Of a stretch of 64,000 nt of DNA, positions 2,648-59,612 are shown piece after piece. Source of the stretch: Allobosea sp. Lineage in GTDB: Bacteria; Pseudomonadota; Alphaproteobacteria; Rhizobiales; Kaistiaceae. The number at the start of each line of letters is the position of its first letter. Position 1 is the stretch's first letter. The stretch lies in NCBI GenBank assembly GCA_017307955.1, contig JAFKFV010000011.1:124001-188000 (forward strand), in the 5' to 3' direction. Below the pieces are notes generated by a model. That model did not search any database. It was not told the origin of the DNA and saw only the letters and a program-made list of their open reading frames with translations. Both the position numbers and the translations under genes were made by a program.

Positions 2648-3801
2648 CCGGCGGCTTCGAGCGCGGCGAGTTCGGCGAGGACCTCCTCGCCATGCTCGCC
2701 GAGCCGCGGCGCCCGGCGATCGAGCGCCAGCGGCGAGGCCGAGAGGCTGATCGGGCTGCGGACGCCGGGAACGCCGTCCGGATCGATGCGCATGCCGCGC
2801 GCGATGATCTGCGGATCGGCGAAGACGTCGGCGACGCTGTTGATCGGTCCGGCCGGCACGCCGGCGGTCTCCAGCGCGGCGAGCAGCGCGTCGCGCTGCC
2901 AGAGAAGCGTGCGTTCGGTGATCGCAGCCGTGAGCTCGGCCCGATTGGCAACGCGGGCGGCATTGGTGAGATAGCGCGGATCGGCGGCCCATTCGGGCGC
3001 GCCGACGATCGAGGCGAACCGCGCGAACTGGCCGTCATTGCCGACGGCGAGGATGAAATGCCCGTCCGCGACCGGGAAGGTCTGGTAGGGCGCGATATTG
3101 GGATGCGCGTTGCCGAGCCGGGTCGGCGCGACGCCGGTGGCGAGATAGTTCATCGCCTGGTTGGCGAGGACGCCGGCCATGGTGTCGAAGAGCGCCATGT
3201 CGACCTGCTGCCCGAGGCCGGTCTTCTCGCGCGCCGCGAGGGCCGCCTGGATCGCCACGACGCCATAGAGGCCGGTGAAGATGTCGGCGAAGGCGACGCC
3301 GATCTTCTGCGGCTCGCCGGCCGGATCGCCGGTCAGGTCCATGATGCCGCCCATGCCCTGGATCATGAAGTCGTAGCCGGCGCGCGGCGCATAGGGGCCG
3401 GTATGGCCGAAGCCGGTGATCGAGCAATAGACGAGGCGCGGATTGATCGCGGCAAGGCTCGGATAATCGAGCCCGTATTTCGCGAGGCCGCCGAGCTTGA
3501 AATTCTCGATGAGGACATCGGCCTGCGCCGCCAGCCGGCGCACGAGCGAGGCGCCTTCCTCGGTGGAAAAATCCGCGATGACCGAGCGCTTGCCGCGATT
3601 GCAGGCGTGGAAATAGGCCGCCGTCCGCTCGCCGCCATGCTCGATGAAAGGCGGGCCCCAGCGCCGCGTGTCGTCGCCTTCCGGGCTCTCGACCTTGATC
3701 ACGTCGGCGCCGAGATCGGCCAGCGTCTGGCCGATCCACGGGCCCGCGAGGATGCGGGCGAGCTCGACGACGCGGAGACCCGCGAGCGGCGCCTCGGTCA
3801 T
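2644..3801 (-). CDS. CaiB/BaiF family (class III) CoA-transferase
   Basis: A 385-residue class III CoA-transferase. The N-terminus reads LAGLRVVELARILAGPW and is followed by ADLGADVIKVE, both hallmarks of the family. The catalytic Asp lies in RAGYDFMIQGMGG near residue 150. It starts two bases after the glutaryl-CoA dehydrogenase stop, so the two genes form a translationally close operon. In this context the likely reaction is transfer of CoA (for example from succinyl-CoA) to glutarate, feeding the dehydrogenase, as in the SUGCT-type glutarate CoA-transferases. The acid specificity is inferred from the neighbour, not from residues. Confidence 0.85.
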   Translation of the reverse strand: MTEAPLAGLRVVELARILAGPWIGQTLADLGADVIKVESPEGDDTRRWGPPFIEHGGERTAAYFHACNRGKRSVIADFSTEEGASLVRRLAAQADVLIENFKLGGLAKYGLDYPSLAAINPRLVYCSITGFGHTGPYAPRAGYDFMIQGMGGIMDLTGDPAGEPQKIGVAFADIFTGLYGVVAIQAALAAREKTGLGQQVDMALFDTMAGVLANQAMNYLATGVAPTRLGNAHPNIAPYQTFPVADGHFILAVGNDGQFARFASIVGAPEWAADPRYLTNAARVANRAELTAAITERTLLWQRDALLAALETAGVPAGPINSVADVFADPQIIARGMRIDPDGVPGVRSPISLSASPLALDRRAPRLGEHGEEVLAELAALEAAG

Positions 3802-3803
3802 CT

Positions 3804-5027
3804 TCAGAAGAAGGCCTGCAGGCCGGTCTGCGCCCGGCCGAGGATCAGCGCATGCACGTCATGCGTGCCCTCATAGGTGTTGACCGTCTCGAGGTTCTGC
3901 GCGTGGCGCATCACGTGATACTCGATCTGGATGCCGTTGCCGCCATGCATGTCGCGGGCGTCGCGCGCCACCGCGAGCGCCTTGCCGCAATTGTTGCGCT
4001 TGACCAGCGAGATCATTTCCGGCGCCGCCTCGCCCTCGTCCATCAAGCGGCCGACGCGCAGCGAGCCCTGCAGGCCGAGCGCGATCTCGGTCTGCATGTC
4101 GGCGAGCTTCTTCTGGAAGAGCTGGGTCTGCGCCAGCGGCCGGCCGAACTGCTTGCGGTCGAGCCCGTAGCTGCGGGCGCGATGCCAGCAATCCTCGGCC
4201 GCTCCGAGCACGCCCCAGGAAATGCCGTAGCGGGCGCGGTTGAGGCAGCCGAACGGCCCCTTGAGGCCGGAAACGCCGGGGAGCAGCGCGTCTTCGGAAA
4301 CCTCGACGCCGTCGAGCACGATCTCGCCGGTGATCGAGGCGCGAAGCGACAGCTTGCCGCCGATCTTCGGTGCCGAGAGACCCTTGGTGCCCTTCTCGAT
4401 GACGAAGCCGCGGATGGCGCCGCCATGCGCCTCCGACTTCGCCCAGACGACGAAGAGGTCGGCGATCGGGCTGTTGGAGATCCAGGTCTTGGCGCCCTGC
4501 AGGCGATAGCCGCCGTCGATCTTCGTCGCGCGGGTCACCATGCCGCCGGGATCGGAGCCGGCATCGGGCTCGGTGAGGCCGAAGCAGCCGATGAGCTCGC
4601 CGCGCGCGAGGCGCGGCAGATAGGCCTCGCGCTGCGCGGCGCTGCCATAGGCATAGATGGGATACATGACCAGCGAGGACTGCACGCTCATCATCGAGCG
4701 ATAGCCGCTGTCGACGCGCTCGACCTCGCGCGCGACGAGGCCATAGGCGACATAGCTCGCGCCCGCGCCGCCATAGGCCTCGGGGATGGTGACGCCGAGC
4801 AGGCCCTGCTCGCCCATCTCGCGGAAGATGTCGGGATCGGTGACCTCGTCGAGATAGGCCTTCTCGATGCGCGGCGCGAGCCGGTCGGCCGCGAAGGCGG
4901 CGGCGGCGTCGCGGATCATCCGCTCCTCGTCCGTCAGCTGGCTGTCGAGGCGGAACGGATCGGCCCAGTCGAACCGCGACAGATCGGGACGATCCTTCGG
5001 CGAGAGGGGAGCGGGGGCATCGGTCAT
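3804..5027 (-). CDS. gcdH: Glutaryl-CoA dehydrogenase
   Basis: A 407-residue flavin-dependent acyl-CoA dehydrogenase. It oxidises and decarboxylates glutaryl-CoA to crotonyl-CoA in lysine, tryptophan and glutarate breakdown. Visible landmarks are [14 protein letters not shown] (FAD/substrate loop, about residue 150), [17 protein letters not shown], and the C-terminal [20 protein letters not shown], where the Glu of YEGTHD is the catalytic base (about residue 385). The RxGxSWG...[11 protein letters not shown] segment and the overall length match GcdH rather than generic ACADs. It leads the operon with the CaiB-type CoA-transferase downstream. No regulator lies alongside. Confidence 0.93.
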
Positions 5028-48738: not shown

Positions 48739-49497
48739 ATGCTTGAAGTTCAATCGGTTTCCAAGTCCTTCGACGGCTTTCGGGCGGTCGACGGCGTCAG
48801 CTTCGCGGTCGCGCGCGGCGCGATCACGGGGTTGATCGGGCCGAACGGGGCCGGCAAGACGACGACCTTCAACCTCATCGCCGGCACGCTCGCGCCCGAT
48901 GCCGGATCGATTCGCGTCGACGGCCGGGCGGTCGAGCATGAGCCGGCGCACCGGCGCATCGCGTCCGGGCTCGCGCGCACCTTCCAGATCCCGAAGCCCT
49001 TCGCGGCGATGACGGTGCTCGAAAACGTGCTCACGGCGGCGCAGGACCAGCCGGGCGAACGCCTCCTGCCGGCGCTTTTCGCGCGCGGCGCCGGTCGGGC
49101 GCAGGAGCGGCGCAATATCGAGCGCGCCCGCGAGATCATCGCCTTTCTCGAACTCACCCGTGTCGAGCGCGAGCCGGCGCGCGTCCTTTCCGGGGGCCAG
49201 CGCAAGCTGCTCGAACTCGCCCGCGTGCTGATGGCGGGGCCGAAGCTCATCCTGCTCGACGAGCCGGCGGCGGGGGTCAATCCGGCGCTGCTCGAGACGA
49301 TCATGGCGCGGATCGAGGAGATCAACGCCCGCGGCATCACCTTCCTGATCATCGAGCACAATATGGATCTCGTCGCGCGGCTCTGCGGCGAGGTGGTCGT
49401 GATGGCGGAGGGGCGCGTGCTCGGTCGCGGCCGGCCGGCCGAGATGGCGCGCGATCCGCGCGTCGTCGAGGCCTATCTCGGCGGGGTCGCGGCGTGA
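48739..49497 (+). CDS. LivG-type ABC transporter ATPase
   Basis: A 252-residue ATPase. Walker A is GPNGAGKTT (about residue 36), the signature is LSGGQRK, Walker B is LILLDEPAAG, and the insert RTFQIPKPFAAMTVLENVL is typical of LivG. The ATG at 48739 gives the family N-terminus (MLEVQSVSKSF). It opens the rightward arm, divergent from the TIGR04076 gene across 113 bases. It powers import of the substrate bound by the LivJ-like protein. Confidence 0.93.
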   Translation: MLEVQSVSKSFDGFRAVDGVSFAVARGAITGLIGPNGAGKTTTFNLIAGTLAPDAGSIRVDGRAVEHEPAHRRIASGLARTFQIPKPFAAMTVLENVLTAAQDQPGERLLPALFARGAGRAQERRNIERAREIIAFLELTRVEREPARVLSGGQRKLLELARVLMAGPKLILLDEPAAGVNPALLETIMARIEEINARGITFLIIEHNMDLVARLCGEVVVMAEGRVLGRGRPAEMARDPRVVEAYLGGVAA

Positions 49498-50246
49498 GCG
49501 AGGCGGCCGTCCTCTCGGCGACCGATCTCGAGGCCGGCTACGAGCCCGGCCTGCCGATCGTCAAGGGCGCCTCGATCAGGGTCGGGCGTGGCGAGATCGT
49601 CGTGCTGCTCGGCCCGAACGGCGCCGGCAAGTCGACGCTGATGAAGGCGATGGCGGGTCTCGTGCCGGTCTCGCGCGGCGTGGTGCGCCTCGGCGAGGCC
49701 GATATCACGCGGAGCCCGGCCCATCGCATGGTCCGTCTCGGCCTCGCTTTCGTGCCGCAGACGGAGAACATCTTCACGACCATGAGCATCGAGGAAAACC
49801 TCGTCCTCGCCGGCCATGTCGTGGCGCCGGCCGAGCGCCGCGCCCGCGTCGAGGCGATGTTCGCGCTCTTTCCCGATCTTGCCGCCCGCCGCCGCCTCGC
49901 CGCCGGGCGCCTCTCCGGCGGCCAGCGCCAGATGCTGGCCGTTGCCCGCGCGCTGATGATCGACCCGACGGTGCTGATGCTCGACGAGCCCTCCGCGGGC
50001 CTCTCGCCGAAGCTCACCGGCGAGGTGTTTGCCAAGCTCGCCGAAATCCGCCGGACGGGCGTCACCATCCTTCTCGTCGAACAGAACGCCCGCGCGGCGC
50101 TCGCCATCGCCGATCGCGCCTATATCCTTGCCGACGGCCGCAACCGCCATGAGGGGCCGGCCGCGAGCCTCGCCGCGGATCCCGAAATCGCGGCGCACTA
50201 TCTCGGCCTCGGCGGCGCCGACGATCTCGAAAGGACCCGCCGTTGA
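49494..50246 (+). CDS. LivF-type ABC transporter ATPase
   Basis: A 250-residue ATPase, the second of the pair. Walker A is GPNGAGKST, the signature LSGGQRQ, and Walker B VLMLDEPSAG; FVPQTENIFTTMSIEENL is the LivF helical insert. The GTG overlaps the LivG stop (GTGA). It is followed without a gap by the permease gene, whose TTG overlaps its stop. Confidence 0.93.
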   Translation: MSEAAVLSATDLEAGYEPGLPIVKGASIRVGRGEIVVLLGPNGAGKSTLMKAMAGLVPVSRGVVRLGEADITRSPAHRMVRLGLAFVPQTENIFTTMSIEENLVLAGHVVAPAERRARVEAMFALFPDLAARRRLAAGRLSGGQRQMLAVARALMIDPTVLMLDEPSAGLSPKLTGEVFAKLAEIRRTGVTILLVEQNARAALAIADRAYILADGRNRHEGPAASLAADPEIAAHYLGLGGADDLERTRR

Positions 50247-51151
50247 GCCTGCAGTTCCTCGCAGACGGCATCTTCGCCGGCGCGCTGATCGGCCTCGGCG
50301 CGGTCGGCCTGACGCTGACCTATTCGATCCTGCGCTTCTCGAACTTCACCCATGGCGACTTCGTCAGCTGGGGCGCCTATCTGGCACTGACCGTGACCGG
50401 GGCGCTGGCCGGGACGCTGCTTCCGGCCGCGCGCTTCGTGCCCTTCTCCTTCGGCTGGCCGCTCGTCGCCGGGGCGCTGATCGCCATGGTGCTGACAGGT
50501 CTCCTCGCGCTCGCGCTCGACTTCGCCCTGTTCCGCCCGCTCCGGCGAACCGGCCACGGCATCGTCATGGTGATCGCGAGCTTCGGCGCCTCGCTAGCCC
50601 TCCGGGCGCTGCTCGAATTCCTCTTCACCTCCGAGCCGGCCTATTTCAGCCGCGCCATCCAGATCGCGATGCCGATCGGCTTCGGAATCCGCGTGACGCC
50701 CGATCAGGCGGCGATGATGGGCCTCGCCGCGATCGTCGTCGCCGCCATGCATCTTCTCCTGACGCGTACCCATATCGGCCGTTCGATGCGGGCGGTGAGC
50801 GAGAACCCGGCGCTGGCGCGTGTCGTCGGCATCGACGTCGCCGCCGTCATCCGCGCCACCTGGCTGATCGGCGGCGCGCTCGCCTGCGTCTCCGGCATCA
50901 TGCTCGGCCTCACGGTGCAGATCCGGCCGCAAATGGGCTTCGACCTCCTTCTCCCGCTCTTCGCCGCGGCCATTCTCGGCGGCATCGGCAGCGTCTGGGG
51001 CGCCATCCTCGGCGGCCTCGTCGTCGGCATCGGCGAGGCGGCGGCGGTGCAGTTCGTCGGCTCGGAATATCGCGCCGCGGTCGCATTCCTGCTGCTGATC
51101 GCCATGCTGCTCGTCCGCCCGCGCGGCTTCTTCGGAGTGCGCGAGGGATGA
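50243..51151 (+). CDS. LivH-type ABC permease
   Basis: A 302-residue membrane permease with about eight spans. It has GLTLTYSILRFSNFTHGDFV at the start, MRAVSENPALARVVGID (the ATPase-contact loop), and GGIGSVWGAILGGLVVG near the C-terminus. It starts at TTG (50243) as TTGA over the LivF stop. It forms one half of the import pore. Confidence 0.92.
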   Translation: MSLQFLADGIFAGALIGLGAVGLTLTYSILRFSNFTHGDFVSWGAYLALTVTGALAGTLLPAARFVPFSFGWPLVAGALIAMVLTGLLALALDFALFRPLRRTGHGIVMVIASFGASLALRALLEFLFTSEPAYFSRAIQIAMPIGFGIRVTPDQAAMMGLAAIVVAAMHLLLTRTHIGRSMRAVSENPALARVVGIDVAAVIRATWLIGGALACVSGIMLGLTVQIRPQMGFDLLLPLFAAAILGGIGSVWGAILGGLVVGIGEAAAVQFVGSEYRAAVAFLLLIAMLLVRPRGFFGVREG

Positions 51152-52122
51152 TCGACCTCATCGGCTATGGCGCCTTCTTCCTCGTCACGGCGCTGATCTT
51201 CGGCGTGCTGGCGCTCGGGCTCAACCTGCAATGGGGCCAGACGGGACTGTTCAATGTCGGCGTCGCCGGCTTCGCGGCCATCGGCGCCTATGCCTCGGCG
51301 CTGGTGACGACGCCGGATGCGGCCGAGCGCTTCGGCGGTTTCGGCTGGCCGATCGCCGCCGGCTGGCTTCTCGCCATGGTTCTCGCCGGCGCGGCGGCGC
51401 TCGTCGTCGGCATCGCGACCTTGCGGCTGCGGGCCGACTATCTCGCCATGACCACCTTCGGCATCGCGGTCACCATCCAGGTCGTGGCGCTGAACGCGAC
51501 GGCGCTGACCGGCGGGCCGTTCGGCATTGCCTTCATCCCGCGTCCCTTTTCGGGCCTTGCCGAGAACCCGCTCGCCTTCAATTTTGCCAATCTGGCGCTC
51601 ACCGCGGCGGTGACGCTCGGTCTCTTCCTGATGCTGGAGACGCTGACGCGGAGCCCCTTCGGCCGGGTCCTCCGGGCCATCCGCGAGGACGAGGCGGCGG
51701 CAGCCTCGCTCGGCAAGAACGTCAATCTCTACCGGCTGCAGGCTTTCGCGCTCGGCGGCGCGATCATGGGCCTCGCCGGCGCCATGCAGGCGCATTTCAT
51801 CGGCTTCATCGCGCCCGACAATTATCTCTCGATCCTGACCTTCCAGGTCTGGGCGATGCTGATCGTCGGCGGCTCGGGCAACAATCGCGGCGCTCTCATC
51901 GGCGCTTTCGTCGTCTGGGCCCTGTGGAGCCTCTCCAGCCTCGCGGTCGGCAGCCTCGTCGCGCCGTCCTTCCAGGCGCGCGCCGCCGCGCTGCAGATCG
52001 TGGCCATCGGCGTCGCGCTGGCGCTGATCCTGCTCATCCGCCCGCGCGGCCTCATCGGCGAGCGCGCCACCGTCTCGCGCGATGTCGAAGTCGCGCCCGG
52101 CGACATCGCCGACAAGACCTGA
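51148..52122 (+). CDS. LivM-type ABC permease
   Basis: A 324-residue membrane permease with about ten spans, the other half of the pore. It has GLNLQWGQTGLFNVGVAGF, the contact loop GRVLRAIREDEAAAASLGKNV, and GGSGNNRGALIGAF. The ATG overlaps the LivH stop (ATGA). A hydrophilic C-terminal tail of about 20 residues follows IRPRGL. All four Liv genes are coupled by start/stop overlaps. Confidence 0.92.
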   Translation: MIDLIGYGAFFLVTALIFGVLALGLNLQWGQTGLFNVGVAGFAAIGAYASALVTTPDAAERFGGFGWPIAAGWLLAMVLAGAAALVVGIATLRLRADYLAMTTFGIAVTIQVVALNATALTGGPFGIAFIPRPFSGLAENPLAFNFANLALTAAVTLGLFLMLETLTRSPFGRVLRAIREDEAAAASLGKNVNLYRLQAFALGGAIMGLAGAMQAHFIGFIAPDNYLSILTFQVWAMLIVGGSGNNRGALIGAFVVWALWSLSSLAVGSLVAPSFQARAAALQIVAIGVALALILLIRPRGLIGERATVSRDVEVAPGDIADKT

Positions 52123-52157: not shown

Positions 52158-53210
52158 ATGGCCAACCTCTTGCCGATCTTCGACGGACATAATGATGTCC
52201 TGCTGCGCCTCTGGGGCCGCGACGACGGCGCCCGCGCCTTCGTCGAAGGCACGGCGGACGGCCAGCTCGACCTGCCGCGCGCCCGGCAGGGCGGCCTTGT
52301 CGGCGGCCTCTTCGCCGTGTTCGTGCCCTCGCCCGGCGGCTTCGCCTATGCCGACAGCATGATGTCGGGCAGCTATGACGTGCCGCTGCCCGATCCGCTG
52401 CCGGTCGCGGATGCGCGCGGTCCGGCGATCGCGATGGCCTCGCTGCTGCTGCGCATCGAGCGGCAATCGGAAGGCGCCGTCGCGATCTGCCGCAGCGCCG
52501 CCGAGATCCGCGCGGCCATCGCCCGCGGCGCGCTCGCGACCGTGCTGCATATGGAAGGCGCCGAGGCGATCGAACCCTCGCTCGAAGCGCTCGATGTATT
52601 CCATGCGGCGGGCCTGCGCTCGATCGGCCCGGTCTGGAGCCGGCCGAACGCCTTCGGCCATGGCGTCCCCTTCCGCTTCCCCGGCTCGCCCGACATCGGA
52701 CCCGGTCTCACCGATGCCGGCAAGGCGCTGGTGGCCGCCTGCAACGCGCTTCGCATCATGATCGACCTGTCGCATCTGAACGAGGCCGGTTTCTGGGACG
52801 TCGCCGCGCTCTCGGATGCGCCGCTCGTCGCCACCCATTCCAACGCCCATGCGGTCACCGCCTCGGCGCGCAACCTGACCGACCGGCAACTGGACGCCAT
52901 CCGCGACAGCGACGGCATGGTCGGTGTGAATTTCGCGACCTGCTTCCTGCGCGAGGACGGGCGGATGACCGTCGACACGCCGCCCGAGACCGTTCTGCGC
53001 CATCTCGACCATCTGATCTCCCGCCTCGGCGAGGACCGCGTCGGCTTCGGCTCCGATTTCGACGGCGCCATGATCCCGGCCGAGATCGGCTCGGCCGCCG
53101 GACTTCCCGCCCTGGTCGAGGCGATGCGCGCCCACGGCTATGACGAGCCGCTGCTGAGAAAACTCGGCACGGAGAACTGGCTGCGCGTTCTGGAAAAGAC
53201 GATCGGCTGA
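52158..53210 (+). CDS. Membrane dipeptidase-like (renal dipeptidase family) metalloenzyme
   Basis: A 350-residue zinc amidohydrolase. Metal ligands are in order: DGHNDVLLR (His-x-Asp), the Glu in HMEGAEAI, His in IDLSHLNEAGF with THSNAHAV, and the Asp in GFGSDFDGA. This is the peptidase M19 family, which hydrolyses dipeptides, often with a C-terminal D-residue, and some cyclic or beta-lactam amides. GAAGGA is seven bases before the ATG. It lies 35 bases after livM and is probably the first enzyme to process the imported compound. Confidence 0.9.
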   Translation: MANLLPIFDGHNDVLLRLWGRDDGARAFVEGTADGQLDLPRARQGGLVGGLFAVFVPSPGGFAYADSMMSGSYDVPLPDPLPVADARGPAIAMASLLLRIERQSEGAVAICRSAAEIRAAIARGALATVLHMEGAEAIEPSLEALDVFHAAGLRSIGPVWSRPNAFGHGVPFRFPGSPDIGPGLTDAGKALVAACNALRIMIDLSHLNEAGFWDVAALSDAPLVATHSNAHAVTASARNLTDRQLDAIRDSDGMVGVNFATCFLREDGRMTVDTPPETVLRHLDHLISRLGEDRVGFGSDFDGAMIPAEIGSAAGLPALVEAMRAHGYDEPLLRKLGTENWLRVLEKTIG

Positions 53211-53295
53211 CGGGCGAAACCGTCTCGGGGGAGACAAGAAGCGGCCCGGCAAGGGCCAAGAAGAGCCAAAAAGAAGAGCGTAGGAAGGAACGGCC

Positions 53296-54417
53296 ATGAC
53301 CATCAGCAACCGGATCGCCATGGCGGCGTTCATGCTCGTCATCGCGCTTGCTGCGATACCCGCGCCGGCGCGGGCGCAGACGGCGGAGCAGCCGCCCCGG
53401 AGCCCGGCGGTGGCCGCGAAGCCGATCACGGTCGGCGTCTTCGTCAACCCGCCCTTCGTGATGCGCGACGGCGACCGCTATACCGGCATGGCCATCGACC
53501 TCTGGCAGTCGCTTGCCGCCCGGCTGCACCAGCCCTTCGTCTATCAGAGCTACCCGAGCATTCCCGGTCTCATCGACGCGACCAGCCGCGGTGAGGTCGA
53601 CCTCGCGGTCGCCAATATCACGGTGAACGAGAACCGGGCGCGCCGCATCGACTTCACGCAGCCCTGGTTCGATGGCGGCCTCCGGATCATGGTCGCCGAC
53701 ACGCATCATTCCAGCTTCCGCGACGTCTTCGACGGCATCAGGAATTCAGGCTTCCTGCGGTCCTATGCGTGGATCCTGCTGGCGATCCTCACCGCGTCGC
53801 TGGTGCTGACGATCTTCGACCGCCGCTTCGACAAGGCCTTCCCGCGCCGCTGGCGCGACGGCTTCGCGGAGAGCTTCTACACGGTCATGCAGATCTCCAC
53901 GACCGGCAAGCCGGCCGTTCGCAAGAACCTCTTCGGCTGGATCGGACGCATCTGGCAGGGCATCTGGCTGATGGCCGGTGTGGTGGTGATCGCCTATGTG
54001 ACCTCCTCCGTCACCACGGTCATGACGACGCTGGCGCTCACCAACCAGATCCGCGGCCTCGAGGATCTCGACGGCCGCACGATCGGCGTCCTGCGCGGCA
54101 CCGTCGCCAACGAGTTCGCGCAGCGCGAGGGTTTTCGCCACCAGCCCTATGCGCAGATCGGCGATGCCGTGAACGCGCTGCTTTCCGGCGAGATCGACGC
54201 CATCATCGAGGATGCGCCGATCCTGCAATACTATTTCTACACCCATCCCAAGGCCGATGTCCGGCTGGTCGGCCGGCTGTTCGAACGGGACAAATACGCC
54301 TTCGGCCTGCCGCAGCGGAGCACGCTGCGCCTGCCGGTGACGGTCGAGATCCTGTCGGCGCAGGAGCGCGAGGAGATCGACCAGCTCAAGATGAAGTATT
54401 TCGGCGACGAGAACTGA
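53296..54417 (+). CDS. Ionotropic glutamate receptor-like protein (binding domain plus membrane pore)
   Basis: A 373-residue protein with the S1-TM-pore-TM-S2 plan of GluR0-type receptors. The signal peptide covers 1-28. Binding half S1 (about 44-140) has ITVGVFVNPPFVMR and the RIDFTQPWFDGG motif. The first span is about 156-174, a pore-like segment AESFYTVMQISTTGKPA is at 191-207, and a second span at 219-246 ends in AYVTSSVTTVMTTL, resembling the SYTANLAAFLT motif of receptors. S2 (about 254-370) has GLEDLDGRTIGV. The pore lacks the potassium-type TVGYG filter. It may be a sensor or channel for an amino acid near the importer. Confidence 0.85.
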   Translation: MTISNRIAMAAFMLVIALAAIPAPARAQTAEQPPRSPAVAAKPITVGVFVNPPFVMRDGDRYTGMAIDLWQSLAARLHQPFVYQSYPSIPGLIDATSRGEVDLAVANITVNENRARRIDFTQPWFDGGLRIMVADTHHSSFRDVFDGIRNSGFLRSYAWILLAILTASLVLTIFDRRFDKAFPRRWRDGFAESFYTVMQISTTGKPAVRKNLFGWIGRIWQGIWLMAGVVVIAYVTSSVTTVMTTLALTNQIRGLEDLDGRTIGVLRGTVANEFAQREGFRHQPYAQIGDAVNALLSGEIDAIIEDAPILQYYFYTHPKADVRLVGRLFERDKYAFGLPQRSTLRLPVTVEILSAQEREEIDQLKMKYFGDEN

Positions 54418-54421
54418 GACG

Positions 54422-55201
54422 TCAGCCGGACTCGGGCTCTGGTGTGCGCGAGAACCCCTTGCTCGCCGTCAGCATCGCGCGCGTATAGGGCTCGCTCACC
54501 GTTCCGCGGCGCAGCGCCTCGGCGGTCGTCTCCTCGACCACGCGGCCGCGGCGCATGACGACGAGCCGCTCGCAGAGATGCGCGACGACGGCGAGGTCGT
54601 GGCTGACGAGAAGATAGGAAAGGCCGAACTCGCGCCGCAGCGTCTCCAGCAGGTTGAGAATCTCCGCCTGCACCGAGGCGTCAAGCGCCGAGGTCGGTTC
54701 GTCGAGCAGCACGAGGCGCGGCCTCAGCACCAGCGCGCGGGCGATGGCGACGCGCTGCCGCTGGCCGCCGGAGAGCTGATGCGGATAGCGGAAGCGGTAG
54801 GAAGGGCCGAGCCCGACCTCCGCGAGGGCCGCGACGATGCGCGCCTCGGCATCGGCGACGCGATGGATCGCAAGCGGCTCGGCGAGGATCTGGTCGACCG
54901 TATGGCGGGGATGCAGCGAGGCGAACGGGTCCTGGAAGACCATCTGCACCGTCCGGTAGAAATCCATGCCGCGCGGCAGGCGCACGGGCTCGCCGGCAAG
55001 GCGGATGGTGCCGCCCGCGACCGGCGCGAGACCGGTGATGGCGCGCAGCACGGTGGATTTCCCCGAGCCGGACTCGCCGACGAGGCCGAGCGATTCACCT
55101 GGCCCGAGCCGCAGCGACACGCCTTCGACGGCGGCGACATGCAACCGCCCGACACCGAAGGTGACGCGGAGATCGTCGATGGCGAGAAGCGGCTCGGCCA
55201 T
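54422..55201 (-). CDS. Dpp/Opp-type ABC ATPase (DppF-like)
   Basis: A 259-residue ATPase: Walker A GESGSGKST, LSGGQRQRVAIA, LVLLDEPTSALD. PHELS-type loop and the C-terminal EPYTRAML segment are typical of DppF/OppF. Its stop lies four bases from the convergent glutamate-receptor-like stop. It is the last gene of a five-gene peptide-importer operon, one base after its partner ATPase gene. Confidence 0.92.
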   Translation of the reverse strand: MAEPLLAIDDLRVTFGVGRLHVAAVEGVSLRLGPGESLGLVGESGSGKSTVLRAITGLAPVAGGTIRLAGEPVRLPRGMDFYRTVQMVFQDPFASLHPRHTVDQILAEPLAIHRVADAEARIVAALAEVGLGPSYRFRYPHQLSGGQRQRVAIARALVLRPRLVLLDEPTSALDASVQAEILNLLETLRREFGLSYLLVSHDLAVVAHLCERLVVMRRGRVVEETTAEALRRGTVSEPYTRAMLTASKGFSRTPEPESG

Positions 55202-55202
55202 T

Positions 55203-56039
55203 CTAGAGCGCCCAGGCCGGGTCGCGGTCGAGCACCGGCAGCGGGTGGCTGTCCCTGTCCAGCCGCGGCAGGCAGCCGATCAGCCCGCGCGTATAGGGAT
55301 GCTGTGCGTCATGCAGCGCATCGGCGTTGAGTTCCTCGACGATCCGCCCGGCATACATGACGAGCACGCGGTCGCAGAAGGAGGCGACCAGTTCGAGATC
55401 GTGGCTGATGAGGATGAGGCCCATGCCGCGCTCTGCGACCAGCGCATCGAGGATGCGCAGCACCTCGCCGCGCACGGTCACGTCGAGCGCCGAGGTCGGC
55501 TCGTCGGCGATGAGGAGTTCGGGATCGGTGATGAGCATCATGGCGATCATCACCCGCTGCCCCATGCCGCCGGAAAGCTCGTGCGGATAGAGCGCCATCA
55601 CGCGCTCGGGCTGGTCGATGCGCACCGAGTGCAGCATGGCGAGCGCCGCCTTGCGCGCCTCGCCCCGGGACGCGCGGCGATGGGCGCGATAGGCCTCGAC
55701 GATCTGCTGCCCCACCGTCATCACCGGGTTCAGCGAATAGCGCGGGTCCTGCATGACCATGGTCATGCGGCTGCCGCGCAGCGCCCGCCGCTCGCGCTCC
55801 GAAGCACGAAGGAGATCGATGCCGTCGAAGGCGAGCCGCTTGGCGGAGACGGTGCCGTTCCGCGCGGTGAGGCCGAGCAGGGCTCGGCCGGTCTGCGACT
55901 TGCCGGACCCGCTCTCGCCGACAATGCCGAGCCGCTCGCGGCCGAGCGTGAACGAAACGCCGCGTACCGCCTCGATGCGCCCGTCCGGCAGGTCGAAGGC
56001 GACCGAGAGGTCCTCGACCTCGACGAGCGGCACGGTCAT
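55203..56039 (-). CDS. Dpp/Opp-type ABC ATPase (DppD-like)
   Basis: A 278-residue ATPase: Walker A GESGSGKSQ, signature LSGGMGQRV, Walker B LLIADEPTSALD. The tail has the HPYTRGLIGCLPRL motif and a short proline-rich end, where DppD proteins carry an iron-sulfur-like region in some members. The start MTVPLVEVEDLSVAF (56039) is taken because the longer frame is a shadow; it overlaps the permease stop as ATGA. Confidence 0.9.
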   Translation of the reverse strand: MTVPLVEVEDLSVAFDLPDGRIEAVRGVSFTLGRERLGIVGESGSGKSQTGRALLGLTARNGTVSAKRLAFDGIDLLRASERERRALRGSRMTMVMQDPRYSLNPVMTVGQQIVEAYRAHRRASRGEARKAALAMLHSVRIDQPERVMALYPHELSGGMGQRVMIAMMLITDPELLIADEPTSALDVTVRGEVLRILDALVAERGMGLILISHDLELVASFCDRVLVMYAGRIVEELNADALHDAQHPYTRGLIGCLPRLDRDSHPLPVLDRDPAWAL

Positions 56040-56950
56040 CGCACGCTCCTCGGGTCGAGCACGTCGCGAAGGCCGTCGCCGAGCAGGTTGAAGCCGAGCG
56101 AGACGACGAAGATCGCGATGCCGGGCATGGCGGCCACCCACCACTGGTCGATGAGGAAGCGGCGGCCTTGCGCGATCATCGTGCCCCATTCCGGCGTCGG
56201 CGGCTGCGCGCCGAGGCCGAGAAAGCCGAGCCCCGCGGCGGTCAGGATGATGCCGGCCATGTCGAGCGTCACGCGCACGGTGACCGAGGAGAGGCAGAGC
56301 GGCACGATATGTTTCAGGAGGATGCGCGCCGAGGAGCCGCCCTGCAGCCGCACGGCATGGATGAAGTCGCTGTTGCGGATCGTCAACGTCTCGGCGCGGG
56401 CAAGCCGCGCATAAGGCGGCCAGGCGGTGATGGCGATGGCGATGATGGCGTTCTCGATGCCCGGCCCCAGCGCCGCGACGAAGGCGAGCGCCAGCACGAG
56501 CCTTGGAAAGGCGAGGAAGATGTCGGTGATCCGCATCAGGATGCGGTCGATCCAGCCGCCGAAATAGCCGGAGATGGTGCCGATCGCGAGGCCGATCGGC
56601 GTCGCGATCACGGTGACCAGGACGACGACCGCGAGCGTCAGCCGCGAGCCGTAGATGATGCGCGAATAGATGTCGCGCGCCTGGTCGTCGGTGCCGAGCC
56701 AGAACACCGGCCCCGGCGGCAGCAGCCGCTCGGTGCGGAGATCGCCGCCGGCGGTCGGCGAATGGGTGGCGAGGAGCGGCGCCAAGGCGGCGACGACGAC
56801 GAGCAGCACGACGACCGCGAGCCCGACCATGGCGGTCGGGTTGCGGGCGAGGCGGCGGAAGCCCTGATAGAGCCCGCCGAGCCGGGCCTGCATGCGCGAG
56901 CGCGGCTCCGATGTCGTCAGCCAGAGGCGAAGCGGGGAGGCGGTCGCCAT
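56036..56950 (-). CDS. Dpp-type ABC permease (DppC-like)
   Basis: A 304-residue membrane permease with about six spans. It has the OppC-type N-terminal segment, the WLGTDDQARDIYSRIIYGSRLTL motif, and the EAA loop near ARLARAETLTIRNSDFIHAVRLQGGSS. It overlaps the next gene by ATGA and the preceding permease by one base. Confidence 0.9.
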   Translation of the reverse strand: MATASPLRLWLTTSEPRSRMQARLGGLYQGFRRLARNPTAMVGLAVVVLLVVVAALAPLLATHSPTAGGDLRTERLLPPGPVFWLGTDDQARDIYSRIIYGSRLTLAVVVLVTVIATPIGLAIGTISGYFGGWIDRILMRITDIFLAFPRLVLALAFVAALGPGIENAIIAIAITAWPPYARLARAETLTIRNSDFIHAVRLQGGSSARILLKHIVPLCLSSVTVRVTLDMAGIILTAAGLGFLGLGAQPPTPEWGTMIAQGRRFLIDQWWVAAMPGIAIFVVSLGFNLLGDGLRDVLDPRSVR

Positions 56951-58017
56951 CAGCGTGTCCTCGGATCGAGCAGGCGGTAGAGAAGGTCGGAGAGAAGGTT
57001 CAGCGTCACGAAGGCCGCGCCGACCACCAGAGTGCCGCCGAGCACGGCATTCATGTCGGCATTCTGCAGCGAATTGGTGATGTAGGAGCCGATGCCCGGC
57101 CAGGCGAAGACGGTCTCGGTGAGCACGGAGCCTTCGAGCAGCGTCGCATAGGAGAGTACGACGACCGTCAGGAGCGGCACCGCGGCGTTCCGAAGCGCAT
57201 GGCGCCAGATCACCCGCGTCTCGGAGAGGCCCTTAACGCGGGCAGTGATCACATATTCCTGGCCGAGCTCGTTGAGGAGCAGGGCGCGGGTCATGCGGCT
57301 GATATAGGCGAGCGAGAAATAGCCGAGAAGGCATGCCGGCAGAACGAGATGCGAGACGGCGTTCCAGAACACATCCGTCTGCCCCTGCATCAGCGCATCG
57401 ACGGTGAGCATGCCGGTCACCGGCGTCACCATATAGTCATAGGCGATGTCTAGCCGGCCGGGCCCGGCCACCCAGTCGAGCCGCGCATAGAAGAGGAGGA
57501 GCGCCATCAGGCCGAGCCAGAAGATCGGTACCGAATAGCCAACGAGCCCGATAATGCGCACGATCTGGTCGAGGAGGCTGCCCGAGCGCACCGCCGCGAA
57601 GACGCCGAGCGGGATGCCGATCAGCGTCCCGATCACGGTGCCGAGCGTCGCGAGTTCGATCGTCGCCGGGAAATAGGTGCGGATATCCTCGATGACCGGG
57701 TTCGTCGTCAGCACCGAGCGGCCGAAATCGCCGGTCACCGCCTTCACGAGATAGATGCGGAACTGCTCGAGGAGCGGCAGGTCGAGCCCCATCTCGGCGC
57801 GCACCCGCGCATAGACATCGCCCGACGCCCGGTCGCCGACCACCGCCAGCACCGGATCGATCGGCACGACGCGGCCGATGACGAAGGTGACGACCACGAG
57901 GCCCAGGAGCGTGATCGCCAGCGTCAGGAGGAAGCCGGCGATGCCGCTCAAGACAGCCAGCGCGACGGCGCCGCGCCGCTCCGGCCGCGCCGCGAGGGCG
58001 CCCTGGTCGAGGCTCAC
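56950..58017 (-). CDS. Dpp-type ABC permease (DppB-like)
   Basis: A 355-residue membrane permease. It has the extra first span and periplasmic region of DppB, RVVPIDPVLAVVGDRASGD, YFPATIELATLGTVIGTLIGIPLG, and the EAA-like YISRMTRALLLNELGQEYVITARVKGL loop. The start is GTG overlapping the binding-protein stop as GTGA. Its stop overlaps the DppC start as TGATG. Confidence 0.9.
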   Translation of the reverse strand: MSLDQGALAARPERRGAVALAVLSGIAGFLLTLAITLLGLVVVTFVIGRVVPIDPVLAVVGDRASGDVYARVRAEMGLDLPLLEQFRIYLVKAVTGDFGRSVLTTNPVIEDIRTYFPATIELATLGTVIGTLIGIPLGVFAAVRSGSLLDQIVRIIGLVGYSVPIFWLGLMALLLFYARLDWVAGPGRLDIAYDYMVTPVTGMLTVDALMQGQTDVFWNAVSHLVLPACLLGYFSLAYISRMTRALLLNELGQEYVITARVKGLSETRVIWRHALRNAAVPLLTVVVLSYATLLEGSVLTETVFAWPGIGSYITNSLQNADMNAVLGGTLVVGAAFVTLNLLSDLLYRLLDPRTR

Positions 58018-59612
58018 TCCTTGCTCGTCGCCGTCGCCAGGTTGTTGTCGAAGGACGGACCCATGATGAAGCCCTTCACATTGGCGCGCTCGGCGGCGTT
58101 CTCGGTCTGCTGGAACATGATGACGAACGGCCCGTCCGCCATGATCTCGCGCTGCATCGCCTCATAGAGCGCCGCGCGCTTGGCCGGGTCGCGTTCGAGA
58201 ATGGCGGCGTCGACTTCCTTGCCGAGTTCCGGCGTCTCCCAGGCATTGCGCCAGGCGAGCGTCTTCGACGAAGCATCGTCCTTGTTGTCGGGATTGGAGG
58301 CGAAGGTCTGCGCGTTGGTGTGCGGGTCCTGATAGTCGGGACCCCAGACTCCGATATAGATGTCATGCGTGCGGGCACGATATTTGGTCAGCGTCTGCTT
58401 GCCGTCGCCCGGGATGATCTCGAGCTTGACGGCGGCCTTGGCGAAGGTCGACTGGATCGCCTCGGCGACGCCGGTGATCGGCTGCGAGGACCGCACATCC
58501 ATGGTCACGGTGAAGCCGTCCGGCAGCCCGGCCTTGGCGAGCAGCGCCTTGGCCTTCTCGACATCGAGCTTGTAGGGGTTGTCGTTGACAGCGCCGAGGA
58601 AGCCCTTGGGCAGGAACGCCTGGTGCACGTTCGCCTGGTTCTTCATGATCGTGTCGGCGATCGCCTCGTAGTCGACGAGATATTTGAGCGCCTCGCGCAC
58701 CTCGGGCTTGGCGAGGTTGGGGTTCTTCTGGTTGAGCCCGAGATAATAGAGCGTGCCCTTCGGCGCCGACTGTATCTTGACGTCCGCGTTCTTCGAGACG
58801 GCCGCGATCTCCTCCGGACCGAGATTGCGGGCGATGTCGACATCGCCCTTTTCCAGGAGGATGCGCTGCGTCGCCGTCTCGGGGATGTGGCGGTAGATGA
58901 CGCGGGCGAGGGGTGCGGGCGTGCCGGAATAGTTCGGGTTGCGCTCCAGCACCGCCACCTCGTTGGCGCGCCAGTCGCGGATCGTGAACGGGCCGGAGCC
59001 GGCATAGTGCGTCTTCAGCCATTCATAGCCGAAATCGCCATTCGCCTCGTGCTCCATGACGAGCTTCTTGTCGACGACCGAGGCGACCGAGGAGGTGAGC
59101 GCGTAGAGGGCGAAGCTCGGCGCATAGGGACGGTCCATGGTGAAGTCGAGCGTGTACTCGCCCGTCGCCTTGATGGCGTCCTTCACATTGTCCTTGGTGA
59201 TGCCGAACTGGTTGATGATGAAGGCGGGCGACTTGTCGAGCAGCACCGCGCGCTGCAGCGAAAACTCGACATCGGCGGCGGTGATCGGGTTGCCCGAGGC
59301 GAATTTCCGTCCCTCGCGGATCTTGAAGGTGATCGTCTTGCCGTCATCGGAGACGGTCCAGCTCTCCGCGACGACGCCGAAGATCTTGGAGACATCGTCG
59401 AGATCATAGCCGATCAGCCGCTCATAGGTGTTGCCGGCGATCTCGGTGGTCGAGATCTCGAAGATCTCGGCCGGATCGAGCGAGATGATGTCGTCGATCA
59501 TCCAGGCCTGGACGAGCGTGTCCTTCGGCGTTGCGGCGAGCGCCGGCGCGGCGGCGAGCAAGGCGGCAAAGACGGCCGCTCCGAAACCTCTCCTGACGAA
59601 TGCGAGACCCAT
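58014..59612 (-). CDS. Dpp/Opp-family periplasmic substrate-binding protein
   Basis: A 532-residue family 5 binding protein. The signal peptide runs to about residue 27 (LLAAAPALAA). The mature part has DIISLDPAEIFEISTTEIAGNTYERLIGYD and the YEWLKTHYAGSGPFTIRDW motif of this family. A GGGGAG site precedes the ATG. It is the first gene of the operon and delivers peptides or a peptide-like compound to the two permeases and two ATPases downstream. The promoter should lie in the 79-bp gap up to the oxidoreductase gene. Confidence 0.92.
   Translation of the reverse strand: MGLAFVRRGFGAAVFAALLAAAPALAATPKDTLVQAWMIDDIISLDPAEIFEISTTEIAGNTYERLIGYDLDDVSKIFGVVAESWTVSDDGKTITFKIREGRKFASGNPITAADVEFSLQRAVLLDKSPAFIINQFGITKDNVKDAIKATGEYTLDFTMDRPYAPSFALYALTSSVASVVDKKLVMEHEANGDFGYEWLKTHYAGSGPFTIRDWRANEVAVLERNPNYSGTPAPLARVIYRHIPETATQRILLEKGDVDIARNLGPEEIAAVSKNADVKIQSAPKGTLYYLGLNQKNPNLAKPEVREALKYLVDYEAIADTIMKNQANVHQAFLPKGFLGAVNDNPYKLDVEKAKALLAKAGLPDGFTVTMDVRSSQPITGVAEAIQSTFAKAAVKLEIIPGDGKQTLTKYRARTHDIYIGVWGPDYQDPHTNAQTFASNPDNKDDASSKTLAWRNAWETPELGKEVDAAILERDPAKRAALYEAMQREIMADGPFVIMFQQTENAAERANVKGFIMGPSFDNNLATATSKE

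Follow-up and report, generated by a model that had tools for sequence, protein, structure and literature searches.

Prokaryotic glutamate receptors without a K+ filter are already known: of the 22 receptors surveyed by Ger et al. (2010), 12 carry a K+ filter and 10, termed Group 2, have pore regions that were not recognised, according to the accessible text of that paper (PMC2950845). The K+-selective Group 1 of the same source has a TVGYG-type filter. GluR0 from Synechocystis, a bacterial receptor with measured function that we met in the literature searched, is K+-selective, and the available portion of a 2026 study in Synechocystis reports its K+ channel activity, with both ends of the protein outside, and a role in KCl stress (PMC13099474). 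Eukaryotic ionotropic glutamate receptors have an M4 and an amino-terminal domain, and family 3 ABC solute-binding proteins (GlnH type) have an S1 plus S2 clamshell with no pore between the lobes. As far as we know, the route from a K+-selective to a cation-nonselective glutamate-receptor pore is unsettled.

The protein described here is encoded in the window, which is the whole 64,000-nucleotide stretch of DNA that was analysed. It shares with GluR0 and NpGLR (from Nostoc) the order of its parts, the absence of an amino-terminal domain and of M4, and the Arg and Asp anchors, whereas eukaryotic receptors have both extra parts; the window protein ends with S2. By definition it fits Group 2, with receptor architecture and a non-K+ pore, and its filter, TTGKP, is not the TVGYG type of Group 1. 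The accessible text on Group 2 describes no filter motif, no basic-filter clade and no reversed plus-4 charge (PMC2950845). Among the matches listed from the open-licence literature, no basic-filter bacterial clade was found, and the clade presented below adds such a variant to the receptors known since 2010. The features of the locus are the following.

48739..52122, plus strand: Liv-type (branched-chain amino acid) ABC importer, two ATPases and two permeases (NCBIfam matches below the curated cut-offs)
52158..53210, plus strand: family M19 dipeptidase, 85 bases upstream of the receptor gene
53282..53289, plus strand: AGGAAGGA, likely ribosome-binding sequence (read directly; 6 bases between its end and the ATG)
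53296..54417, plus strand: gene for a GluR0-like subunit of 373 aa (ORF, Pfam, homologues)
53296..53379, plus strand: leader, residues 1-28, hydrophobic, C-terminal ARAQ, likely signal peptide (sequence, hydropathy)
53419..53700, plus strand: S1 half of the ligand-binding domain, residues 42-135, anchors T109 and R114 (alignment to 2pyy)
53752..53829, plus strand: M1 helix, residues 153-178 (AlphaFold2, hydropathy)
53851..53904, plus strand: pore-loop helix (P), residues 186-203 (AlphaFold2)
53899..53913, plus strand: filter TTGKP, residues 202-206, where TVGYG is expected (alignment, profile comparison)
53920..53925, plus strand: R209-K210, with R209 at the acidic 'plus 4' column (alignment, profile comparison)
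53935..54042, plus strand: M2 helix, residues 214-249, with T236 and the gate-like end AYVTSSVTTVMT (AlphaFold2, alignment)
54043..54405, plus strand: S2 half of the ligand-binding domain, residues 250-370, anchor D306 (Pfam, alignment to 2pyy)
54422..59612, minus strand: Dpp/Opp-type peptide ABC importer converging on the receptor gene (one ATPase and the binding protein from NCBIfam matches below cut-offs; permeases and second ATPase named by eye)

The receptor gene is intact from ATG to stop (ORF list and translation), and Pfam, hydropathy, AlphaFold2 and Foldseek agree on the order S1-M1-P-M2-S2 in one chain. The original prediction of an S1-TM-pore-TM-S2 plan is borne out by the Pfam matches, the hydropathy peaks and the three AlphaFold2 helices (153-178, 186-203 and 214-249). 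Hydropathy is maximal in the leader, at about residues 152-178 and at about 219-248. The leader-like N terminus is likely a signal peptide, which would place S1 in the periplasm. The linkers M1-P and P-M2 are basic in the window protein; among the 54 members of the clade defined below, 12 have an M1-P linker whose net charge is at most 0. SBP_bac_3 (E 1.6e-18) and Lig_chan-Glu_bd (E 1.1e-10) match above their Pfam cut-offs, and Lig_chan (E 4.9e-6), at 26.9 bits, falls short of its cut-off of 30.8. In alignment A1, with 17 members, SBP_bac_3 and Lig_chan-Glu_bd were each found in 17/17 and Lig_chan in 16/17 at E 0.001. Scans of positions 53100-54500 gave no promoter-like site, and one terminator-like site on the minus strand, a count no higher than in shuffled sequence.

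The best solved sequence relative is 2pyy, the binding domain of the Nostoc bacterial receptor (E 4.8e-28). An AlphaFold2 monomer, built as a single chain from 17 sequences, has a mean pLDDT of 83; the binding lobes mostly exceed 90, and the stretch between the filter and the end of M2 lies at 63-75. Foldseek aligned 369-385 columns, and 49 of 50 among the matches listed are AMPA receptor subunits, including the best one (E 7.8e-23 over 371 columns). The TM-scores by query length are 0.47-0.64 and the rmsd is at least 5.5, so lobes and pore are not in one rigid pose in these full-length matches. With VIA-align, the binding domain scores Z 29.9 against an engineered glutamine-binding protein, 29.8 against glutamate-bound NpGLR and 29.5 against glutamate-bound GluR0, a tie within 1. 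The clamshell is as close to family 3 solute-binding proteins (Z up to 29.9) as to GluR0 and NpGLR (29.5-29.8), but in the window protein the lobes are separated by a pore loop and two transmembrane helices, where the former have no pore.

For the pore itself, a pore-only profile gave no significant match against solved chains (best E 0.083), which, at the level of profiles, speaks against a homology of the pore that is easy to see. The profile of TVGYG-type bacterial pores, by contrast, matched KcsA at 6.8e-14, and the clade pore is linked via these bacterial TVGYG pores.

Homologues were taken from genome contigs (17 loci), from genomes sampled by order, phylum, class and genus, and from plasmids; the first scan yielded 17 homologues, 40-59% identical. 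The final alignment contains 90 distinct proteins, of which 54 (window included) form the clade and 36 are other prokaryotic homologues. The clade was set by a whole-protein score above 400 bits (lowest member 428, next row 252); the filter was not used to pick the 54, but the pore adds to the whole-protein score. Rows left out are L018 and L020 (the window itself), L019 (a lone weak match), L030, L041 and L066 (duplicates) and L064 (a broken copy). The later additions L097, L098 and L135 enter none of the counts, and the filter counts leave out G1023, G935, G812, G850 and G817, five of the 36 order genomes with a match below 1e-100. Plasmid members in the alignment are H1, H3, H5, H8, H15 and H21.

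In a tree calculated from S1 and S2 with the pore excluded, all 54 clade members fall on one side of a branch with an SH-aLRT of 100; the tree comes from a quick search with no bootstrap, and long branches leave the arrangement of the non-clade rows unsure. Conservation in the protein is highest in the pore loop and M2, with a mean share of the commonest residue of 0.84 and 0.82, compared with 0.65 in S1 and 0.60 in S2. The pore is therefore probably functional.

TVGYG is absent from the window protein, and the segment QISTTGKP (residues 199-206) occupies its place, as the original prediction had stated; the filter is changed in 54 of 54 clade members. G204 is present in all 54, preceded by T202 in 51, and position 205 is K in 34 and R in 20; after the filter, position 209 is R in 47 and H in 4, and K210 is found in 51. 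None of the 36 other homologues has K or R at column 205, 12 of them having T[VI]GYG and 24 neither type. Irrespective of register, a G followed by K or R occurs in columns 198-208 in 54/54 clade members, 0/12 TVGYG homologues and 1/24 others, the sole row outside the clade (G-R, L029) being very divergent, its pore segment shortened. Columns 200-207 contain a K or R in 54/54, 0/12 and 3/24, respectively, and G-Y-G is present in 0/54 clade members. Judged from the alignment, the changed filter is the rule of one clade, conserved across genera, and not chance or a one-off. Further prokaryotic filters that are neither TVGYG nor basic (for instance VVNGGFEER) were seen in L021, L023, L056, L048, L052, L024 and L096.

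The second change concerns the 'plus 4' site, which according to the excerpted source is acidic: Asp in animal receptors, Glu in plants and an equivalent Asp in GluR0 (PMC12226733). The window protein has no acidic plus-4 residue of the kind found in eukaryotic receptors, and Arg209 stands at the aligned column. With the R of the conserved G-R that opens M2 as reference, the residue nine positions N-terminal to it is D in 12/12 TVGYG homologues and R or H in 51/54 clade members. Columns 202-212 contain no acidic residue in any of the 54 clade members, and at least one in 12/12 TVGYG homologues and 13/24 others. A profile comparison of 31 clade pores with the 12 TVGYG pores (E 8.4e-13) places K205 opposite the Tyr and R209 opposite the Asp. 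The filter register differs by one between methods: hhalign pairs K205 with the Tyr and MAFFT pairs it with the preceding Gly. Over columns 202-218 of the MAFFT alignment, 38/54 clade members are one residue longer than the TVGYG type and 16/54 are equal.

On these grounds the pore would be a non-potassium one, and the prediction of a bacterial glutamate-receptor-like subunit without a K+ filter holds in sequence, structure model and family data. The clade has T-[ST]-G-[KR] where GluR0, a K+ channel in the part of the source at hand (PMC13099474), has TVGYG. A likeness to this filter is found in animal receptors. GluN3, like the window protein, has a G followed by a basic residue at the filter constriction, and in the alignment with a GluN3A chain the number of residues separating this G from the G-R ahead of M2 is the same. 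GluN3 differs in being an animal protein with extra domains and M4, and its pore profile match has an E of 1, so convergence is a likelier source of the resemblance than close descent. A positive charge in the filter is found as well in R-edited GluA2 AMPA receptors, but at a neighbouring position, by RNA editing and with the plus-4 Asp kept.

The anchors of the ligand-binding domain are retained. An Arg of S1 and an Asp of S2 hold the alpha-amino acid, as described in the accessible text of Ger et al. (PMC2950845). The window protein has T109, R114 and D306; across the clade, T or S at 109 is found in 52/54, R114 in 53/54 (missing in L014) and D306 in 53/54 (missing in L090). Given these residues, the ligand is likely a free alpha-amino acid. 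Glutamate was considered and not adopted: the anchors are kept, but columns 48, 265, 305 and 333 differ from those of the TVGYG set. Column 48 is T in 7/12 TVGYG homologues and V, L or I in 53/54 clade members; column 305 is Y or H in 12/12 TVGYG homologues, G or A in 44/54 clade members and Glu in the window protein. The pattern suggests a ligand other than glutamate, perhaps a less polar amino acid.

The receptor gating motif is SYTANLAAF. The original prediction had likened the end of the second transmembrane span to this motif, and the claim stands in part: the threonine (T236, in 54/54 clade members) and the hydrophobic pattern of AYVTSSVTTVMT are present and align to the end of M3 of plant GLR3.4, a match that is non-significant (E 0.14), but SYTANLAAF itself is absent. 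An exact SYTANLAAF gate was accordingly rejected, the window protein keeping the threonine and hydrophobic pattern alone.

What we infer for the tetramer, orientation, gating, selectivity, ligand and role is the following. Four copies of the protein would form a ligand-gated ion channel like GluR0. In the periplasm, the S1-S2 clamshell would bind a free alpha-amino acid and close, and closure would pull on M2 and open the pore. The pore would be an inverted K+-channel pore with a remade filter, in which T-x-G is retained, K or R followed by a residue that varies or is missing takes the place of Y-G, and Arg stands where an acidic residue would follow the filter. With such a filter and the Arg behind it, the channel should have lost K+ selectivity. 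Conduction would be of monovalent cations with little Ca2+, as in receptors with GluN3, which has G-R at the Q/R/N site, or with R-edited AMPA subunits, some passage of anions being possible. Opening would shift the membrane potential or the ion balance once the amino acid appears outside; as no cytoplasmic domain can be seen, the one evident output is the pore. Overall, we favour with moderate confidence an amino-acid-gated homotetramer of the GluR0 kind, no longer selective for K+ and permeable to monovalent cations but poorly to Ca2+. The channel probably opens to an amino acid and passes other ions than its known bacterial cousin.

The choice of monovalent cations over anions is guided by the animal precedents. 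The excerpted text on GluN3 attributes a suppressed Ca2+ permeability to G and R standing in the place of N, and states that GluN1-GluN3 receptors, with G-R in GluN3, conduct mainly Na+ (PMC12005412). GluA2(R) without auxiliary subunits has a detectable Cl- permeability (PCl/PCs 0.14), and with an auxiliary subunit its Cl- flux is negligible, according to the available part of that study (PMC6754398). From these precedents we would rank monovalent cations first and anions second. A ring of four K/R205 and four R209 could nevertheless favour Cl- or small organic anions, in line with the Cl- permeability of GluA2(R) alone and with the net charge of columns 205-217, which is +2 to +4 per subunit in 54/54 clade members but lies between 0 and +1 for the 12 TVGYG homologues and between -1 and +1 for the other 24. 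Against an anion channel, this topology should turn the charged segment towards the cytoplasm, a side on which basic residues are common, and both the GluN1-GluN3 receptors and GluA2(R) with its auxiliary subunit speak for cations; we consider anion permeation unlikely.

Another reading takes the protein as a membrane-anchored binding protein or a non-conducting sensor for a neighbouring ABC importer, with the two-transmembrane part as a mere anchor. The original prediction had placed the gene beside a dipeptidase and an amino-acid-type importer, and this is correct: a Liv-type importer and the M19 dipeptidase lie upstream and a Dpp/Opp-type importer downstream, the importer names coming from matches below cut-offs. 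The Liv-type importer and dipeptidase adjoin the gene in the window and in L001 (Kaistia soli), where the whole order Liv-dipeptidase-receptor-Dpp recurs (L030 is the same gene as L001). In L032, with short flanks, the order is dipeptidase-receptor-Dpp as far as the sequence reaches, with the dipeptidase just upstream. By eye, other ABC-type genes are found within 4 kb in L005, L010, L011 and L013, and relatives are annotated as 'transporter substrate-binding domain-containing protein'. However, L001, L030 and L032 all belong to the genus of the window, the arrangement is absent from the other clade loci inspected (L002-L017 and L031), and outside the genus no single importer recurs beside the gene. 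Clustering of the ORFs of 20 loci (L001-L017 with 4 kb flanks, L030-L032 with about 1.5 kb, L001 and L030 being one gene) gave no cluster in more than 5 loci, the receptor and its antisense ORFs aside. An arrangement found in one genus only says little about function, and the operon was rejected as a strong functional clue. An anchor alone would also not be expected to keep a pore loop, and conservation peaks in the pore loop and M2, which makes the anchor or sensor improbable in our view.

The Y-G of the K+ filter completes the K+ sites. A channel that still selects K+, in which T-x-G would suffice for the K+ sites and K205 would point off the pore like the Tyr, could draw on the retention of T202 (51/54) and G204 (54/54), but with G-Y-G in 0/54 and the post-filter Asp lost, it is the least likely of the readings weighed here.

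If the favoured reading of a cation channel with lost K+ selectivity holds, the clade would be a bacterial parallel to GluN3 and R-edited AMPA receptors. With an invariant basic filter, its members, about 370 aa long and free of extra domains, would serve as a large natural set of small channels in which the effect of a basic filter and a reversed plus-4 charge could be measured.

Within the order, 36/397 sampled genomes have a match below 1e-100 and 65/397 any match at 1e-20; the corresponding numbers are 7/398 and 27/398 for the phylum, and 1/385 (the window) and 9/385 for the class. Among 14 genomes of the genus (E 1e-20), the window type is present in 3 (G000, G385 and G392), a second type in 7, both in 0 and neither in 4. 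The second receptor type (L034-L040, seven genomes of the window's genus) has TQASTG where the filter is expected. In Devosia algicola (L009:3827-5089) the reading frame of the receptor appears disrupted close to the leader, with a main ORF that begins at 4112, inside S1; this may be a decaying copy or a sequencing error.

Plasmids gave 85 matching records, and in 21 of these the match spans 80% or more of the query. A plasmid of Paracoccus denitrificans carries a member with a G-R filter, 50% identical; one of the ten Group 2 sequences, ZP_00629025.1, is presumably from Paracoccus denitrificans. A Salmonella conjugative plasmid (NZ_CP017721.1, L095:3932-4987) carries a 41% identical member with the filter TTGK, annotated merely as a transporter substrate-binding protein.

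A further copy lies in a cluster of phage head genes. L098 (IMGVR_UViG_3300020599_000097, 10,119 bases), a viral contig found by two profile scans, contains a full-length clade member of 371 aa at 3223-4338, with the filter ATSGRPAARKN and 67% identity to L007 (Devosia) and 71% to L067 and L069. It is encoded on the opposite strand between the genes for a portal (E 1.8e-158) and a head maturation protease (E 9.7e-99), with terminase and major head protein genes nearby. Of 30 portal-bearing loci, 26 have both portal and protease; the receptor is present in L098's own contig alone, and the 25 related loci are without it. In the nearest relative, L106 (portal 78% identical), the portal-protease gap measures 353 bases, compared with 1,286 in L098, and in L111, L117 and L131 other reverse-strand ORFs of 204-240 aa lie in the same gap. 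A search of 50,697 phage records gave no match, and among the matches listed from the open-licence literature none described a glutamate receptor carried by a phage. From this one contig, the receptor of L098 looks like cargo, in a site used for cargo.

We speculate, as an idea somewhat less likely than anion permeation as such, that the doubly basic pore (K/R205 and R209, four copies each) makes an amino-acid-gated, Ca2+-excluding, anion-conducting channel, whose gene travels on plasmids and as phage cargo, in which case it could allow the phage to couple the membrane potential of the host to external amino acids. We know of no anion-permeable native member of the glutamate-receptor superfamily described before; an anion-conducting clade, if real, would be the first, as far as we know. 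Six further viral contigs (L099-L104) contain stretches resembling TVGYG receptor pores, which may be receptors or plain K+ channels.
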